From Alphaproteobacteria bacterium (GTDB lineage Bacteria > Pseudomonadota > Alphaproteobacteria > UBA8366 > Aestuariispiraceae), in contig JANSXE010000002.1 of NCBI GenBank assembly GCA_024743195.1, forward strand, positions 1 to 64,000: a stretch of DNA of 64,000 nt. Reading direction: 5' to 3'. Both the position numbers and the translations under genes were made by a program. The notes beneath the pieces were generated by a model, which was not told the origin of the DNA, searched no databases, and saw nothing but the letters and a program-made list of their open reading frames with translations. This document shows positions 25,348 through 39,928 of the stretch, in pieces (within the stretch, counting starts at the first letter, position 1; every line of letters starts with the position of its first letter).

Positions 25348-25474
25348 CGGCGGCCTAGCCGCCCCCAAGAATCGTGCTAGCCTGCCGCGGGTTCGCGTAT
25401 GCTCGGACCTGCAAAGGAGAGCGGTCGGCCGGACGCGCAGTCTGGCCGGGCGGCGCAGTCGGGATGCGGTGGCG

Positions 25475-27514
25475 ATGGCGCTCAAGGTCAGCGGCGGCGA
25501 TGGGGAAGAGGCGGGCGGTCACGGGCCGATCCTGATCAAGGATCGCTACGAGGTTCATCCGGACCAGCCCTTGCCGGATTTCGACGATCCTCCGGCCGTC
25601 GCAGTGCGGGCCAGTCATCGGCGGGACTCGAACCGACAGCTCTACGCCCTCGTCTGCGACCCGAAACTCCCGCCCAGACTGGACATCGTCTCGACCGTGC
25701 ATCGGATCGACCATCGCGCGCTGCAGCGGGTGGTGGATTGGGGCGTTGTCCATTGGCCGGCCGAGGATCGGCGCTGCCCGGTCATCCTGATGGAGCGGCC
25801 GGCCGGCCGGCGCGTCTTCGCCGCGTTGACGGACGTCAACGCGGCGGTCACGGAAGAGACCGTGATGCGGATCTTCCTGACGCCCGTGGTCGAAATCCTC
25901 AAGGATCTGCACGCGCTCGGCGTGCACCACCGCAACATTCGACCGAACAATCTGTTCTTCGCCGATTCGGACGAACGCGAGATCTATATCGGCGAGTGCT
26001 TCAGCGCCCAACCGGGCACGAATCAGCCGGCGGTGTTCGAAACCATCGAATGCGCCCTCGCGGCGCCGGCTGGGCGGGGCGAGGGCGGCGTCGAAAACGA
26101 TTTGTACGCGGTCGGGGTCACGACGATCGCGTTGCTGGCCGGCAAGACGCCGCTTGCGGATCTGAGCGACGAAGAGGTCGTGCGGCGCCGGCTGGCGATG
26201 GGGTCCTATGCGGCGCTGACGCAGAATCTCCGAATCTCGCTGACCATGATGGAGCCGCTGCGCGGGCTGCTGAACGACGACCCGACGGAGCGCTGGACGC
26301 TTGAGGAGCTCAGCCTTTGGCTCAACGGCCGCCGGCTGTCGCCGAAGCAGCAGGTGATGCCGAACAAGGCGTCGCGCGGCTTCACCTTCGCCGGCCGGGA
26401 CTATTTCACGACGCGCGAACTCGCCCATGCGATGCACAAGAACTGGGACGCTTCGCTGGCGCCGATCCGCGACGGCACGCTCGACACGTGGCTGCGCCGC
26501 GGCTTGAGCGAGGATGAGCGGGTCGAGGCGGTCAACGAGGCGAAAGCCGCCCTCGGCGATGGCGGGGATGCGGATCGGCTGATCGCCCGGGTCCTGATCG
26601 CGCTGGACCCCGAGGGGCCGATCCGGCTGCGCGACCTGTCGGCGACCATAGAGGGTCTGGCCTCCATCCTCGGCCTGCACATGCATGACAGCGCGGCGCG
26701 CAATCTGTTCGCGAGCGCTCTTTCCATGGGGCTGGGGCAATTCTGGCTCGAACAGCAACGGCGCGTAGACCCCAACCAACTGCGCTTCCTCACGCGGCTC
26801 GACAAGTGCCGGATGGTCATGAACCAGCCCGGCCTCGGCTTCGGGATCGAGCGCGCGGCCTATGAGATCAACCAGAACCTGCCCTGCCGGTCGGAGCTCT
26901 TCGAACGCGACTACATCGCCACCGTCGAGCATCTGATTCCCGCCTACGAACGGTTGGCGGCCCTGATCGCCGCAGGCGCCGAGAAGCCGCGCCGCCTGAT
27001 CGACCGCGACGTCGCCGCCTACATCGCCGTGCATTTCAAACGCGCGAGCGGCGGCGAGTTGCGCGACGTGGAGCGAGAAGGCGACGAACCGGCCGGGCGG
27101 ATCGCTCAGATCCGTCTGCTCGCCAACATTCAGGACTATCTCCATAAGAAAGGCGAGACGCCCCATCTGAGCGCCTTGGCCGCCGAGATTCTGGAGCCCG
27201 CGATCGAGCGGTTCCACAGCCGGGACCGTCGGCGCAAGGTGCGCGACAAGTTGCGCAAGGCCGCCCGCAGCGGCCGGCTGTCCGATCTGTTGGACGTGAT
27301 CGACGACCAGTCGGAGGTTCAGGCCGACCAGCGCAGTTTCGACGGTGCGGTGCGGGAGTACGCGCTCTCCGTCGAGGAGACCATCGTCGCCAAACGCGAC
27401 ATCAAGAACCGCGCCTTGCTCGCGGCTGAGATCGGCGGTCAGCTTTCCAGCACGTTCTCCGCGCTGGGCGCGACCATGGCGGCGCTCATCACCTTCGTGG
27501 TCTGGTGGTTCTGA
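25475..27514 (+). CDS. Tail-anchored protein-kinase-fold pseudokinase
   Basis: A 679-residue protein with a Ser/Thr-kinase-like domain at about residues 20-335. The catalytic loop reads HRNIRPNN at 152-159 where active kinases have HRDxKPxN, so the catalytic Asp and the Lys are both changed. The DFG metal site is replaced by GEC near 173-175, and no Gly-rich loop is visible. The later VENDLYAVGVTTIALLAGKTP and DDPTERWTLEEL blocks still show the kinase C-lobe. About 320 further helical residues, rich in charged segments, end in a membrane helix (LGATMAALITFVVWWF). Its stop overlaps the next ATG as TGATG, so the two are coupled. Confidence 0.82.
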   Translation: MALKVSGGDGEEAGGHGPILIKDRYEVHPDQPLPDFDDPPAVAVRASHRRDSNRQLYALVCDPKLPPRLDIVSTVHRIDHRALQRVVDWGVVHWPAEDRRCPVILMERPAGRRVFAALTDVNAAVTEETVMRIFLTPVVEILKDLHALGVHHRNIRPNNLFFADSDEREIYIGECFSAQPGTNQPAVFETIECALAAPAGRGEGGVENDLYAVGVTTIALLAGKTPLADLSDEEVVRRRLAMGSYAALTQNLRISLTMMEPLRGLLNDDPTERWTLEELSLWLNGRRLSPKQQVMPNKASRGFTFAGRDYFTTRELAHAMHKNWDASLAPIRDGTLDTWLRRGLSEDERVEAVNEAKAALGDGGDADRLIARVLIALDPEGPIRLRDLSATIEGLASILGLHMHDSAARNLFASALSMGLGQFWLEQQRRVDPNQLRFLTRLDKCRMVMNQPGLGFGIERAAYEINQNLPCRSELFERDYIATVEHLIPAYERLAALIAAGAEKPRRLIDRDVAAYIAVHFKRASGGELRDVEREGDEPAGRIAQIRLLANIQDYLHKKGETPHLSALAAEILEPAIERFHSRDRRRKVRDKLRKAARSGRLSDLLDVIDDQSEVQADQRSFDGAVREYALSVEETIVAKRDIKNRALLAAEIGGQLSSTFSALGATMAALITFVVWWF

Positions 27515-28227
27515 TGGCGAAGGCGCCGACGGGCAAGAAGAAGGGGGCCGCATCGGCCGGCGGCGGCAAGAAGGCCGGCGGCGGCGGCGTTCGGGCGCTC
27601 TCGCTCGTGATCGCGATCATCCTGGTGGTGCTGTTCTTCGACAGCGTGATCGTGTTGGCCGCCGGCATGATCCCGACCGGCGTCGCCTATCTGGTCGACC
27701 GCCGCCCCCAGCGCTATGCGGCGCGCACCGTGGCCTGGATGAATCTCGCCGGCTGCCTCGTGGTCGTGCTCGATCTCTGGGACGGCGGCGGGTCGATCGA
27801 CCGGGCGATCGAACTGCTGCTCGATCCGGTGAACTGGGTGATCATGTTCGGGTCCGCCGGGTTCGGATGGGTCATCTACTTCACCTTGCCGCCCATCGTC
27901 TCCGGCTATCTGGCGCTGTCGCAGGAGATGCGGCTCAAGGATCTCGCGAAGAAGCAGAAGAGCCTGGAGAAGGAGTGGGGCGAGGAAGTGCGCAAGTCGG
28001 CGCCGCTGGACCGGCTGGAGGCTCTGGAGGCGGAGATCGCCGCCGCGCAATCCCGCGGCGGGCCGGCCCATGCTGCGACCGGCGGTGCGACCGGCGGGGC
28101 GGGCGCCGGAGCGGACGGCGGCGAGGGCGCCGATCGCCCGGAAGCCGACGCCGCCCCGGAGCCGGAGGAGGATCTCTCAGACACTCCGGCTGGCCGGCCC
28201 CTTACCGGCCGGGGCGGCGCCGGGTGA
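27514..28227 (+). CDS. Membrane protein coupled to the pseudokinase
   Basis: A 237-residue protein with a Lys/Gly-rich cytoplasmic N-terminus, about four hydrophobic spans (near 27-48, 50-60, 74-92 and 105-135), a charged coiled coil (about 137-180: LSQEMRLKDLAKKQK onward) and an Ala/Gly/Glu-rich tail. I do not recognise the family. Translation starts within the pseudokinase stop codon, so the two products are likely partners in the inner membrane. It converges on rpoH, with 49 bp between stops. Confidence 0.8.
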   Translation: MAKAPTGKKKGAASAGGGKKAGGGGVRALSLVIAIILVVLFFDSVIVLAAGMIPTGVAYLVDRRPQRYAARTVAWMNLAGCLVVVLDLWDGGGSIDRAIELLLDPVNWVIMFGSAGFGWVIYFTLPPIVSGYLALSQEMRLKDLAKKQKSLEKEWGEEVRKSAPLDRLEALEAEIAAAQSRGGPAHAATGGATGGAGAGADGGEGADRPEADAAPEPEEDLSDTPAGRPLTGRGGAG

Positions 28228-33504: not shown

Positions 33505-33580
33505 GCTCCCTTCGTCTAGTGGCCTAGGACGCCGCCCTCTCACGGCGGAAACAGGGGTTCGAGTCCCCTAGGGAGCGCCA
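33505..33580 (+). tRNA. tRNA-Glu (anticodon CTC)
   Basis: The acceptor arms GCTCCCT (33505-33511) and AGGGAGC (33570-33576) pair fully. The anticodon arm CCGCC/GGCGG encloses a 7-base loop with CTC, which reads GAG. The T-arm has GGTTCGAGTCC. The discriminator is G33577, and CCA is encoded at 33578-33580. Confidence 0.97.
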
Positions 33581-35175: not shown

Positions 35176-36510
35176 ATGACCCCGCCGCCGGACAAGATCG
35201 GCCCCGTGCTTCCGACGCCGGAGGAGGCCGAGACGGGGCGTCCGGGCGGCGCGGCGCCGGGCCCCACGCTGAAGCGCAGCCTGTCGCTGCCGCTCCTGGC
35301 GCTCTACGGGCTGGGCACCACGATCGGGGCCGGCATCTTCGTGCTGGTCGGCAAGGTGGCGGGAATCGCGGGCGCGCAGGCGCCGCTGGCCTTTCTGGCG
35401 GCGGCCCTGATGGCGGCGCCGACGGCGCTCAGCTTCGGGGAGCTGGCCGCCCGCTATCCCTTCAGCGCCGGCGAGGCGGTCTATGTCCAGCGCGGCCTGC
35501 GGATCGACCGGCTGCCGCTTGTCGTCGGGTTGATGGTCGCCGCCGCGGGGCTCGTCTCCTCCGCCGCCATCGCGCAGGGCTTCGCCGGCTATCTGGGGGT
35601 CTTCGTCGAGGCGCCGGCGGCGCTGATGACCGCGTTTCTGATCGCGGCGCTGGTCGCGCTGGCGATCTGGGGCATCGTCGAATCGGTGACCGTCGCGGCG
35701 CTCCTGACCCTGGCGGAGGTCGGCGCGCTGGCGCTGGTGATCGCGACCGGACTGGACGACGCCTTGGCGAAGCCGGCGGCGATGGCCGCGGCGCTCACCC
35801 CGCCGGCGGCCGCGGCGCCGGCGATTCTGGCCGCGGGCGTGCTCGCCTTCTACGCCTTCATCGGCTTCGAGGACATGGTGAACGTGGCCGAGGAGGTGCG
35901 CGACGTCGAGCGCACCATGCCGCGCGCCATCATCATCACGCTGGCCGCCACCACGGTGCTTTACATGCTGACGGCGCTGGTCGCGGTGACGGCGGTCGCG
36001 CCCGCGGAACTGGCGGAGAGCCAGGCGCCGCTGGCGCTCGTCTATGAGCGCGCGTCGGGCTGGAACCCGGCGCCGATCACGCTGATCGCCATCTTCGCGG
36101 TGGCCAACGGGGCGCTGATCCAGATCATCATGGCCTCGCGCATCTTCTACGGGCTGGCGCGGCTCGGCTGGCTGCCCGCGCGCTTGGGGCGGGTCTGGCG
36201 GGCGACCCGCACGCCGGCGCTGGCGACGCTGTTCGCGGGCGGGATCTCGCTGTTCTTCGCGCTGGCGCTGCCGATCGTGCGGCTGGCGGAGATCACCGCC
36301 TTCATCACGCTGATCGTCTTCGCGCTGGTGAACGCCGCGCTGATCGCGCTGAAGCGCCGCGGCGATCCGGCGGAGGGCCCGGCGGAGGGCCCGGCGGGCG
36401 AGGAGGCGACGGCCCGCCGCTTCCGGGTCCCGCTTGCGGTCCCGCTCTTCGGCCTGCTGACCAGCCTTGGCTTCACCGCCTACCAGGCCGCGCTTTGGAT
36501 CAGCGGGTGA
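35176..36510 (+). CDS. APC-family amino-acid permease
   Basis: A 444-residue transporter with about twelve spans. The APC hallmark in TM1 is LALYGLGTTIGAGIFVLVG (about residues 42-60), followed by LSFGELAARYPFSAGEAVYV and FIGFEDMVNVAEEVRDVERTMPRAI (span about 230-255). The carrier type (cationic or broad amino acids) is not clear. A short repeat AEGPAEGPAG lies in the C-terminal loop. The start at 35176 keeps a charged cytoplasmic N-terminus. Confidence 0.9.
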   Translation: MTPPPDKIGPVLPTPEEAETGRPGGAAPGPTLKRSLSLPLLALYGLGTTIGAGIFVLVGKVAGIAGAQAPLAFLAAALMAAPTALSFGELAARYPFSAGEAVYVQRGLRIDRLPLVVGLMVAAAGLVSSAAIAQGFAGYLGVFVEAPAALMTAFLIAALVALAIWGIVESVTVAALLTLAEVGALALVIATGLDDALAKPAAMAAALTPPAAAAPAILAAGVLAFYAFIGFEDMVNVAEEVRDVERTMPRAIIITLAATTVLYMLTALVAVTAVAPAELAESQAPLALVYERASGWNPAPITLIAIFAVANGALIQIIMASRIFYGLARLGWLPARLGRVWRATRTPALATLFAGGISLFFALALPIVRLAEITAFITLIVFALVNAALIALKRRGDPAEGPAEGPAGEEATARRFRVPLAVPLFGLLTSLGFTAYQAALWISG

Positions 36511-36674
36511 GAGAAGGCGCGATAGCAAGCGGGGCGAGAACCATCTCACCGCGCAGGTTTCCCCGCGCACCGCTTTTACGATACTGTTGTCACGGCGATG
36601 CGCCCGATGCGGCCATTATGGTCTAAAGGGCGGCTGCGATTGTTTTTCGTTTCCGAAGGGTTCTAGGAATCCTC

Positions 36675-37424
36675 GTGAAGAGCTTGAGAGGCGCGGGCAT
36701 GATTGGCGGGTTCCGCTTCGTTATGATGTGTGCTTGGCTCCTCGCCGCCGGACTTACCCCTGCAAACGGGAGCGACCCACCAGACCCTCCCGTACTTCAG
36801 ATCAACTCCCCGCCATACCGAGAAGCTCTCACGGATTTTATGGAAGCCTCGGCGACCGACATCGTCGAAGGCTTTCAGAGTTCCACAGAGGATCGGCCAG
36901 TGGTCCGAGGCATTGTCACCGTTATGGGGCTTCTTCCCACCGACAGAACGATTTGCTTGAGTTTCCAAAGCATTGACGGTTTCTTCCACGGTGGTGCGAC
37001 GATCGAAATCGAAGGGTATTCGGGCGCACTGATTCTGGTCTTCGAAAGCGACTATCTGTCCGAACTCAACCTCTCGGAACGCGAACTTGCCCTACGCGTT
37101 CGCGCCTCCTCGGATCGGGGCGTCTGCCCTGACGACTCGCCGATGCTGGTCGCCGGGTGGGGTCGTATACGAAGCGTGTCTCACGTCTCGTTGTTTACAC
37201 GAGCGGACCTTGGCGAGCGGGTTCACAGTTACCTGGACCTGAACCGTTACGAGGTGTGCAAGCCGATCAGAGGCGTCACCTCGGCGCTAACGGCCTACAA
37301 CGTGATCTGCAGGTTTCGCGTGGCCGACATTTGCAACAACGTCGCCGCCGTCTCTCTGATTTGGCAGGCGGGCGTAACGCGCGGCGACGCAATCGACGCA
37401 CCGTTGCGGGCGCCCTGCCTGTAA
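36675..37424 (+). CDS. Secreted Cys-containing protein, cassette gene 1
   Basis: A 249-residue protein of unknown family. Residues 10-33 form a signal peptide (FVMMCAWLLAAGLTPANGSD). The mature part has six or more Cys (RTICLSF, RGVCPDD, EVCKPI, VICRFR, ADICNN, APCL) and may form disulfides in the periplasm. Beta strands such as GATIEIEGYSGALILVF dominate. A GTG start at 36675 follows AGGA; the ATG at 36699 would still keep the signal. Base composition around 36.5-37.4 kb is visibly less GC-rich than neighbours. Confidence 0.7.
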   Translation: MKSLRGAGMIGGFRFVMMCAWLLAAGLTPANGSDPPDPPVLQINSPPYREALTDFMEASATDIVEGFQSSTEDRPVVRGIVTVMGLLPTDRTICLSFQSIDGFFHGGATIEIEGYSGALILVFESDYLSELNLSERELALRVRASSDRGVCPDDSPMLVAGWGRIRSVSHVSLFTRADLGERVHSYLDLNRYEVCKPIRGVTSALTAYNVICRFRVADICNNVAAVSLIWQAGVTRGDAIDAPLRAPCL

Positions 37425-37446
37425 GGACAGCGCCCCGGGAGAGGCT

Positions 37447-38496
37447 ATGGTGAAGGCGATTGAACCCCTCCTTGGCGCCGCCAAGCGACGTCCGTATCTG
37501 GCGGTCAATGTCATAGCCGTTCTGCTTGTCGGCGGCGCTCTCCTGGCGGTCGCCTACGCGCCGCGCCTCGCGCACTTCACGGCCACGGCTCATGTCGGCG
37601 CCTTGGAAGTCCGCCAAACATCCGCTACGGGCTTCCTGGAATGGCGCAACGCGCCCGTCGACGCCGCGACCCCAGACCTGCCGCGCGATTGCGAGTCGCC
37701 GCGGTTCACGGCGGACAGGACCCACGCGGCCAGTGACTCGATCGTGGACGTCGCGCTCTCCCTCGATCCGACAGGCGCGCTCGTCGCCGACGTCTTGGCG
37801 GACAACGGACGTTCCCTTGGCGTGATCGAATGCGCGGCCGGCGACAGGCATGCGGCGCCCCATTTCATGCTGCTGCGGTGGCCGGCAAGCCAAGCGTCCC
37901 GCCTCAATCTTCCCATTCAAGGCTTCATGACGCTCGGTCAGGCGCCGGACCGGCGCAGCGTTCTCCAGCACATTCTCCTGGAAGGCCGGGTCATGGTGCA
38001 TGTCAAGGGTTGGCCTTTCGAGCGCGCGCGCCTCGACACAGAGGAATGGTCGCTTCATTCCGGTGACCGCGTGAGCTTCCACAAGACGCGCGAGCGCGAC
38101 GATATGGCTGAGGCGCATGCAATCGTGCGGTCGATCGAGGGGGCGCTGCACGTCACGCTCAATACCGAAGCCGCAATCGCCTCGGTCCTGAGCTTTGGGC
38201 AACGGCAGGCTGACGCGGGCTACTTGGCGCCGACAGCCTTGGCGCGAATCCGGGCGGTTCCGGAATGGCCGTTGGTCGCGATCGCTGCCGTCATGCTGTT
38301 CAACATCGTCTCGCTGTTCCGGGCGATCCGAACGGAGGAGGCGATCCTTCAAGCGATCGGCGAGGTCGAGGCTGCGATCGCTTTGAAGGCGGAGGGCGGG
38401 GGCGCAGTGCAGTCCCCAGCCCCGCATGCGGCTGCCGGAACTTCACCTGACGCGCAGGCGCCGGGCCAAGACGGGAACTCAGCGGGCCAACGATAG
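37447..38496 (+). CDS. Two-TM protein with large periplasmic domain, cassette gene 2
   Basis: A 349-residue protein with a membrane helix near residues 18-38 (AVNVIAVLLVGGALLAVAYA), about 230 residues of mixed strands and helices between the spans, and a second helix near 272-292 (WPLVAIAAVMLFNIVSLFRAI). It ends in an acidic, Ala-Gly-rich cytoplasmic tail. GGGAGAGG lies before the ATG. I recognise no family. It stands 22 bp after gene 1 and 13 bp before the protease gene, so the three are very likely one operon. Confidence 0.72.
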   Translation: MVKAIEPLLGAAKRRPYLAVNVIAVLLVGGALLAVAYAPRLAHFTATAHVGALEVRQTSATGFLEWRNAPVDAATPDLPRDCESPRFTADRTHAASDSIVDVALSLDPTGALVADVLADNGRSLGVIECAAGDRHAAPHFMLLRWPASQASRLNLPIQGFMTLGQAPDRRSVLQHILLEGRVMVHVKGWPFERARLDTEEWSLHSGDRVSFHKTRERDDMAEAHAIVRSIEGALHVTLNTEAAIASVLSFGQRQADAGYLAPTALARIRAVPEWPLVAIAAVMLFNIVSLFRAIRTEEAILQAIGEVEAAIALKAEGGGAVQSPAPHAAAGTSPDAQAPGQDGNSAGQR

Positions 38497-38509
38497 CAGG
38501 AGATCGTCG

Positions 38510-39928
38510 ATGTCGAGTTTACGGGCAGGACAATTCGCCGTGGCGGCCGCTGCGCTCCTTGTGACAACGGCATGCGCAGAACTCAGCCTGCCGACGCCCG
38601 AGCCGACATTGGGCCCGTCGGCTTCGGCCGTCCCGTCGCGCGCGCAGGCGTTCGAACCGGGAGTGATTACGGCGGCGCGGGTCGCCGCTGGCGCCGGTCG
38701 CGCTCAGGGCGCTTGGCTTGGCGGAGGGGGGGCGACGCGCTGCTACCTGGTGACCGTCGCCCACGCTGTCGACGCCGCGCGGTCGGCCTCGCTCGCTTTC
38801 GAGAACGGCGCCTCCGTGGATGCGACGATCCTGCAAAGCGATCCCTCGGTGGACTTGGCCGTGCTCCGGGCGGAGCCTAGCGGGTCCCGCGCCCCGCCCG
38901 ATTGCTCGCCGGTCACGCCGACCTCCGACTTGGAAACGGCGATCCGCTCCGGCGCCGGCGTCGGCTACATCCTCAGCCTGGATTCCACGGGCGCAGCCCT
39001 TCAGAGCCCGGTGTTCCTCCGTCGGCGTACGGACACCCATCTCGCCGTGTCGCCCGCCGGCGGGGCCCGCCTGACGCGCGGGTTGAGCGGCTCGCCCGTC
39101 TTGTTCAATGACATGGTGGTAGGGATCCTGGTCGGTCGCGAGGGCGATGCGGACGGCCTCTGGCGGGTGACCCGGTTGGACTATGCTCAGAGCGTCCTGC
39201 CGCGCTACCTGACGTCTGCTGAGGCGAGCCCGCCGAGCGAGCCGTTCGACCTCGATCTGCTGCCCGACGATATCCGGCGGATCGCGGTTCAGGCGCGGCG
39301 CACGGAGCAATTGGCCAAGACGGCGGAAGAGGACGCGCTCGAGGTTCGCGCGAAAGCAAGGGAAGCGAAGAGCATCGCATCGAGTCTGCCGGAACGTCAG
39401 ACCGTCGGCGGGTACCGGCGATTCAGGTCGGACTCGTCCGACAACTATTATTGGGGACAGGTCCGAAGCTATGGTCCGAACAATGTGAGGGTGAAGGCGT
39501 TCGGGTTCGGCGTGTCGGAAACCGTCGTCGGAGAGGATCGAGGCAATCTTCACTTCTGCCGGTTCGATAGCGGTTGCGTGGGCGCCGGCGTCCTGGAGTA
39601 TTCGGAGAACAGGGGCAATTCGAACGATCTGCTGAGTTGGCGTGGCGAGTTCGAGGACGGCGCGCGGCGTGGCGTAGGCGTGCTTCGGTGGCGCAAGGAA
39701 GACGATCACGTCATCCAGAGAATTGCCTATCTGAACATACGCGAAGGCTCTAAGCCCGCTCCCGGCGTATGGATTCGCGCCTCCGACGGGTACAGATTCG
39801 AGGGTGAGATCGGCGCGAATTGGGATGGGCTTGGCGTGCTCTGGACGGCGGACGGGAGCATCCAAGCCATAGGGCGCTGGGCGGATAGTGAGTTCATCGA
39901 AGACAGAACCGCTGAAGTTCAGCCATAG
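38510..39928 (+). CDS. Lipoprotein-like trypsin-fold protease with MORN-like C-terminus, cassette gene 3
   Basis: A 472-residue protein. The N-terminus ends in TTAC (Cys22), a lipobox-like site after a hydrophobic stretch. The serine-protease fold follows: His85 in VTVAHAVD, Asp115 in DPSVDLAVLR and Ser193 in GLSGSPVLFN form a complete triad. Residues about 265-310 (EQLAKTAEEDALEVRAKA) look like a coiled coil. The rest has MORN-like strands, with GYRRFRSD, GVLRWRKED and YRFEGEIGANWDGLGVLW. No PDZ domain is seen. AGGAG precedes the ATG. It ends a three-gene cassette of exported products; the role is unknown. Confidence 0.78.
   Translation: MSSLRAGQFAVAAAALLVTTACAELSLPTPEPTLGPSASAVPSRAQAFEPGVITAARVAAGAGRAQGAWLGGGGATRCYLVTVAHAVDAARSASLAFENGASVDATILQSDPSVDLAVLRAEPSGSRAPPDCSPVTPTSDLETAIRSGAGVGYILSLDSTGAALQSPVFLRRRTDTHLAVSPAGGARLTRGLSGSPVLFNDMVVGILVGREGDADGLWRVTRLDYAQSVLPRYLTSAEASPPSEPFDLDLLPDDIRRIAVQARRTEQLAKTAEEDALEVRAKAREAKSIASSLPERQTVGGYRRFRSDSSDNYYWGQVRSYGPNNVRVKAFGFGVSETVVGEDRGNLHFCRFDSGCVGAGVLEYSENRGNSNDLLSWRGEFEDGARRGVGVLRWRKEDDHVIQRIAYLNIREGSKPAPGVWIRASDGYRFEGEIGANWDGLGVLWTADGSIQAIGRWADSEFIEDRTAEVQP

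Follow-up and report, generated by a model that had tools for sequence, protein, structure and literature searches.

The locus comprises three consecutive genes—here termed A, B and C, and together the cassette—within a stretch of 64,000 nucleotides of an alphaproteobacterial contig that was analysed as a whole (the window). Gene A (positions 36675–37424) encodes an exported protein of 249 amino acids and gene B (37447–38496) a protein of 349 amino acids with two transmembrane (TM) segments, neither of which matches a family; gene C (38510–39928) encodes a 472-residue protein combining a lipoprotein-like N-terminus, a Trypsin_2 domain, a coiled-coil-like helix and a weak MORN-like tail. All three genes lie on the forward strand, with intergenic gaps of 22 bp (A–B) and 13 bp (B–C)—the close spacing that an earlier note on this DNA had described. 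A plausible purine-rich, Shine-Dalgarno-like stretch was recognized by eye upstream of each start, and the overall layout suggests that the genes are co-transcribed; a promoter scan yielded no sigma-70 type promoter. For gene A, an alternative start at ATG 36699, preceded by GAGAGG, would give a product of 241 amino acids that keeps the complete signal peptide. Judged by eye, this codon may be a better start than GTG 36675.

The product of gene C had been described as a trypsin-fold protease with a complete catalytic triad, and both claims were borne out. Residues 74–198 (38729–39103, forward strand) matched the Trypsin_2 family (PF13365) with 32.1 bits, above the curated gathering score of 27.6, at an E-value of 2.3e-7; His85, Asp115 and Ser193 were found in the contexts TVAHAVD, DPSVDLAVL and GLSGSP, respectively. 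The best PDB match was HhoA (5b6l, E-value of 2e-5), with the three residues aligning to the triad residues of that enzyme. With a complete His-Asp-Ser triad and a score above the family cut-off, C belongs to Trypsin_2. Members of the HtrA family (HhoA, DegS, DegP/DegQ and AlgW), which supplied the best PDB matches, resemble C in their trypsin fold, in the TxAH, DLAV and G(N/L)SG(G/S)P motifs and in being exported. However, their similarity to C amounted to only 13–27 bits, and C lacks the C-terminal PDZ domain, at least one of which is needed for membership in the HtrA/Deg group; none was detected in Pfam at E-values of up to 1, and a coiled coil and the MORN-like tail stand in its place. Moreover, the NCBIfam model degP_htrA_DO scored 20.0 bits against a cut-off of 416, and the cut-offs of the NCBIfam DegP, DegS and HtrA models were all far above the scores of C; by neither measure does the protein qualify for the HtrA/Deg family. 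The protease domain also gave a weak match (19.2 bits) to the MarP family of membrane serine proteases, but the cut-off of 250 bits was not approached, and C has no counterpart of the multi-TM part of these proteins.

At its N-terminus, C displays a hydrophobic peak at residues 9–27 and a cysteine, Cys22, directly after VTTA. The lipoprotein character proposed in the earlier note is possible; a bacterial lipoprotein would show a canonical lipobox after its signal peptide, and that of C is atypical, with a threonine at position -3. A candidate for the coiled coil proposed in the same place lies at residues ~261–293 (39290–39388, forward strand), where a crude measure gave the highest heptad score within B and C; the MORN-like end that was to follow it held in a weak form. 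This tail (residues ~301–472; 39410–39925, forward strand) scored 15.2 bits against PF02493 (MORN), below the cut-off of 22.5, while its score with a small MORN profile was equalled by only 2 of 2000 shuffled sequences, the match coming mainly from WRGEFEDG. Because the Pfam match is sub-threshold and the profile match weak, the end of C is fairly called MORN-like, but C is not a MORN protein. A literature search on architectures combining MORN repeats with a protease returned nothing relevant. Among the proteins compared, a lipoprotein-like protein of Stutzerimonas kirkiae (L029:7557-9026) resembles C in being exported-looking and in carrying both MORN-type repeats and a protease-like domain, with 31% identity to C across the MORN part. 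The two proteins differ in that the S. kirkiae repeats—about eight, as counted by eye—are canonical and precede a domain that appears caspase-like by eye, whereas the protease of C is of the trypsin type. Furthermore, neither A nor B adjoins the S. kirkiae gene in the ORF list.

The characterization of A as secreted and Cys-containing, and of B as a two-TM protein with a periplasmic domain, likewise found support—the domain of B being probable, as it follows from the predicted topology. Protein A has a hydrophobic peak at residues 9–27 and, beyond a single cysteine within the signal peptide, six further cysteines. In B, the hydrophobic peaks at residues 18–36 and 276–294 correspond to the two TM segments, and the N-terminus is basic. 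Since KRR precedes TM1, an N-in/C-in arrangement is the simplest topology, and by the positive-inside rule B probably exposes a middle domain of ~235 residues to the periplasm. Neither A nor B matched any family in Pfam and NCBIfam scans, and AlphaFold2 predictions from single sequences reached a mean pLDDT of 32 (A) and 39 (B)—models that are unusable. The matches of both proteins in a PDB sequence search were rejected as chance.

The cassette had also been described as poorer in GC than its neighbours. Both windowed GC content and codon usage confirmed that the block is atypical. Relative to a 653-kb sample of the genome (mean GC of 0.700 ± 0.025), the GC content of 36675–39928 was 0.650, within the lowest 1.8% of windows of the same size, and dropped to 0.597 around gene A (36500–37499), in the lowest 1.3% of windows. 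The GC3 values of A, B and C were 0.69, 0.77 and 0.77, respectively, versus 0.955 and 0.950 in the flanking genes; the corresponding ORF-based percentiles (8–21%) are inflated, as the background contains false ORFs. Codon scores followed suit, with -0.23, 0.08 and 0.05 for A, B and C as compared to 0.68 and 0.64 for the flanking permease and PEP-mutase-type genes.

Upstream of the cassette, a tRNA-Glu(CTC) gene (33505–33580, forward strand) forms the endpoint of synteny with a genome of the same genus, G001, which is collinear with the window from ~22.8 kb up to the tRNA-Glu, but not past it. The tRNA gene is identical in both genomes. The earlier note had linked this tRNA to a possible integrase remnant; the tRNA is real, but the ORFs adjoining it contain no integrase domain. 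Additionally, the tRNA 3′ end did not recur at a length of 9 nt or more in the window and the next 40 kb, nor at 11 nt or more in the 270 kb downstream, and no direct repeats were found bounding the cassette. Neither of the two features that define a tRNA-borne integrative island—an integrase gene and a repeat of the 3′ end of the tRNA—was found at the cassette. Because it lies 3.1 kb past the tRNA-Glu, behind GC-typical genes for a fasciclin and an amino-acid permease, the cassette does not directly adjoin the tRNA as a simple island would. On its downstream side, it is followed by a PEP-mutase/isocitrate-lyase-type gene and then by a gene for a TRAP-type binding protein; G001 has no close counterpart of the permease or of the PEP-mutase-type gene. 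In G001, a 5.4-kb stretch with a GC content of 54.5% (L111:406-5849, contig C15) lies behind the tRNA-Glu and is closed by a perfect 14-bp repeat of the tRNA 3′ terminus, with the two repeat copies at 406 and 5836. Its genes include a dienelactone-hydrolase-like one and two that match nothing in Pfam, and the stretch looks like an integrated island. Within it, a LuxR-like regulator was recognized by eye, and a lipoprotein-like gene was noted. The tRNA-Glu is a variable site within the genus, and the same-genus comparison provides a clear example of it. The route by which the cassette itself arrived has left no record in the sequence. Its gain by transfer, as suggested earlier, is supported by the foreign composition and by the end of synteny at the tRNA, but not by an integrase or a flanking repeat.

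Relatives of the cassette proteins were sought across a broad range of genomes. For B, no credible relative was found among 58 related genomes, 384 further genomes from the class and another 348 from the phylum (samples that overlap), and nothing emerged from plasmids, phages and viral contigs or from an exact-peptide scan of 84,980 GTDB species, a type of pattern scan that detects close relatives only, while distant ones may escape. Gene A had no credible relative in the class sample, eight family members, plasmids and viral contigs. Where A or B gave weak matches in the samples of class and phylum, these were dismissed as chance—with E-values of 0.001–0.01, short alignments and, in several cases, internal stops. 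For C, the searches gave ordinary HtrA-type proteases only, apart from a single MORN-only match in the scan of the 84,980 species; the non-protease part alone gave nothing in the 348 other phylum genomes. No match to C was found in phage collections or viral contigs, and plasmids contributed one generic Leptospira trypsin-like match. The best order-level candidate (L050/L065) was discarded as an ordinary DegS-like protease, with neither A nor B adjoining. Homologues of A, B and C were found together in no genome searched, an outcome that the earlier note had named as weakening its proposal. A three-gene system that recurs across genomes is therefore unsupported, the co-occurrence search of the sampled genomes having given no second example. 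The cassette is an unexplained singleton, not a demonstrated system.

We consider it about an even chance that the three genes make up an orphan operon acquired by lateral transfer, encoding an envelope-located, PDZ-less HtrA-like protease and two partners. Lateral gain of the set is probable, and an envelope role is likely. The operon would sit in a lineage-variable stretch that begins at the tRNA-Glu synteny breakpoint, and all three products would be directed to the cell envelope. In this arrangement, C would act as a serine protease of trypsin fold and HtrA-like type, retained at a membrane or in the periplasm, with its putative coiled coil and MORN-like beta tail serving oligomerization and the binding of partners or surfaces in place of a PDZ domain. 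B, as an inner-membrane protein, could anchor or regulate C through its predicted periplasmic domain; A—secreted and probably disulphide-bonded—may be a substrate, a ligand or a regulator. Spacing and shared export signals are the sole features suggesting that the three proteins may act together. Furthermore, the breakpoint need not stem from the cassette, because GC-normal flanking genes are also missing there in the relative. It seems unlikely that the three proteins make up a single device for signalling or effector action at the envelope, with the PDZ-less HtrA-like protease controlled by B as its two-TM partner and by A as a secreted ligand rich in cysteine; we know of no described counterpart of such control.

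Several other explanations bear on the same evidence. C could be a divergent exported HtrA-type protease, with A and B as unlinked orphan genes whose position beside it, within a variable region, is due to chance. This account, which we hold possible without favouring it, draws on the absence of A–B–C co-occurrence from all other genomes searched and on the distinct composition of A, its GC3 departing from the value found in B and C. It has to contend, however, with the single strand and narrow gaps, the Shine-Dalgarno-like sequences, the export or TM signals in all three proteins, and the GC3 and codon score common to B and C. Far less probable is that the sequence is decaying or non-coding, A and B not being real genes at all: their codon scores are close to zero, they lack homologues and family matches, and the ORF list contains long antisense ORFs opposite B and C, yet the sense frame has the top codon score among the six frames in A, B and C (by small margins), signal peptide and TM segments occur at the expected places, and the triad of C is intact. 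Among the sampled genomes, no homologue provided independent evidence for A and B as conserved coding genes or as a linked unit.

Trypsin-like proteases are found in conflict systems, and the cassette lies in a variable, tRNA-flanked neighbourhood. Conceivably, it could work at the envelope as a module of defence against phages or rival bacteria, in which B or A would release the protease effector. In PADLOC, the HamA and RT-Protease_XI models did match C, but weakly (13–18 bits) and within the generic protease fold; A and B gave no match, and the set did not supply the components of any PADLOC anti-phage system. Moreover, the scan of neighbouring genes revealed none identifiable as a defence gene, and all three proteins have export or TM signals, whereas the usual effectors are cytoplasmic. 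We regard a defence function as unlikely; a role in envelope sensing, which the earlier note raised together with defence, is likewise a guess. Should the three proteins of the proposed orphan operon cooperate, they would represent an HtrA-type protease regulated by dedicated partners without PDZ domains; should they not, the cassette would be one among many orphan gene clusters of variable regions.

Further observations were made elsewhere in the same genome (G000). Directly after purA, at 25463–28227, the window contains a protein-kinase-like gene (Pkinase, 41 bits) with a C-terminal TM segment recognized by eye, which overlaps a gene for a second membrane protein without a Pfam match. A separate contig of 3490 bp (L037, contig C8) carries two long ORFs at 27–31% GC in an assembly of 70% GC, and represents either a foreign element or contamination. 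Finally, four consecutive genes at 51–58% GC form an atypical patch on contig C16 (L045:310-7384).
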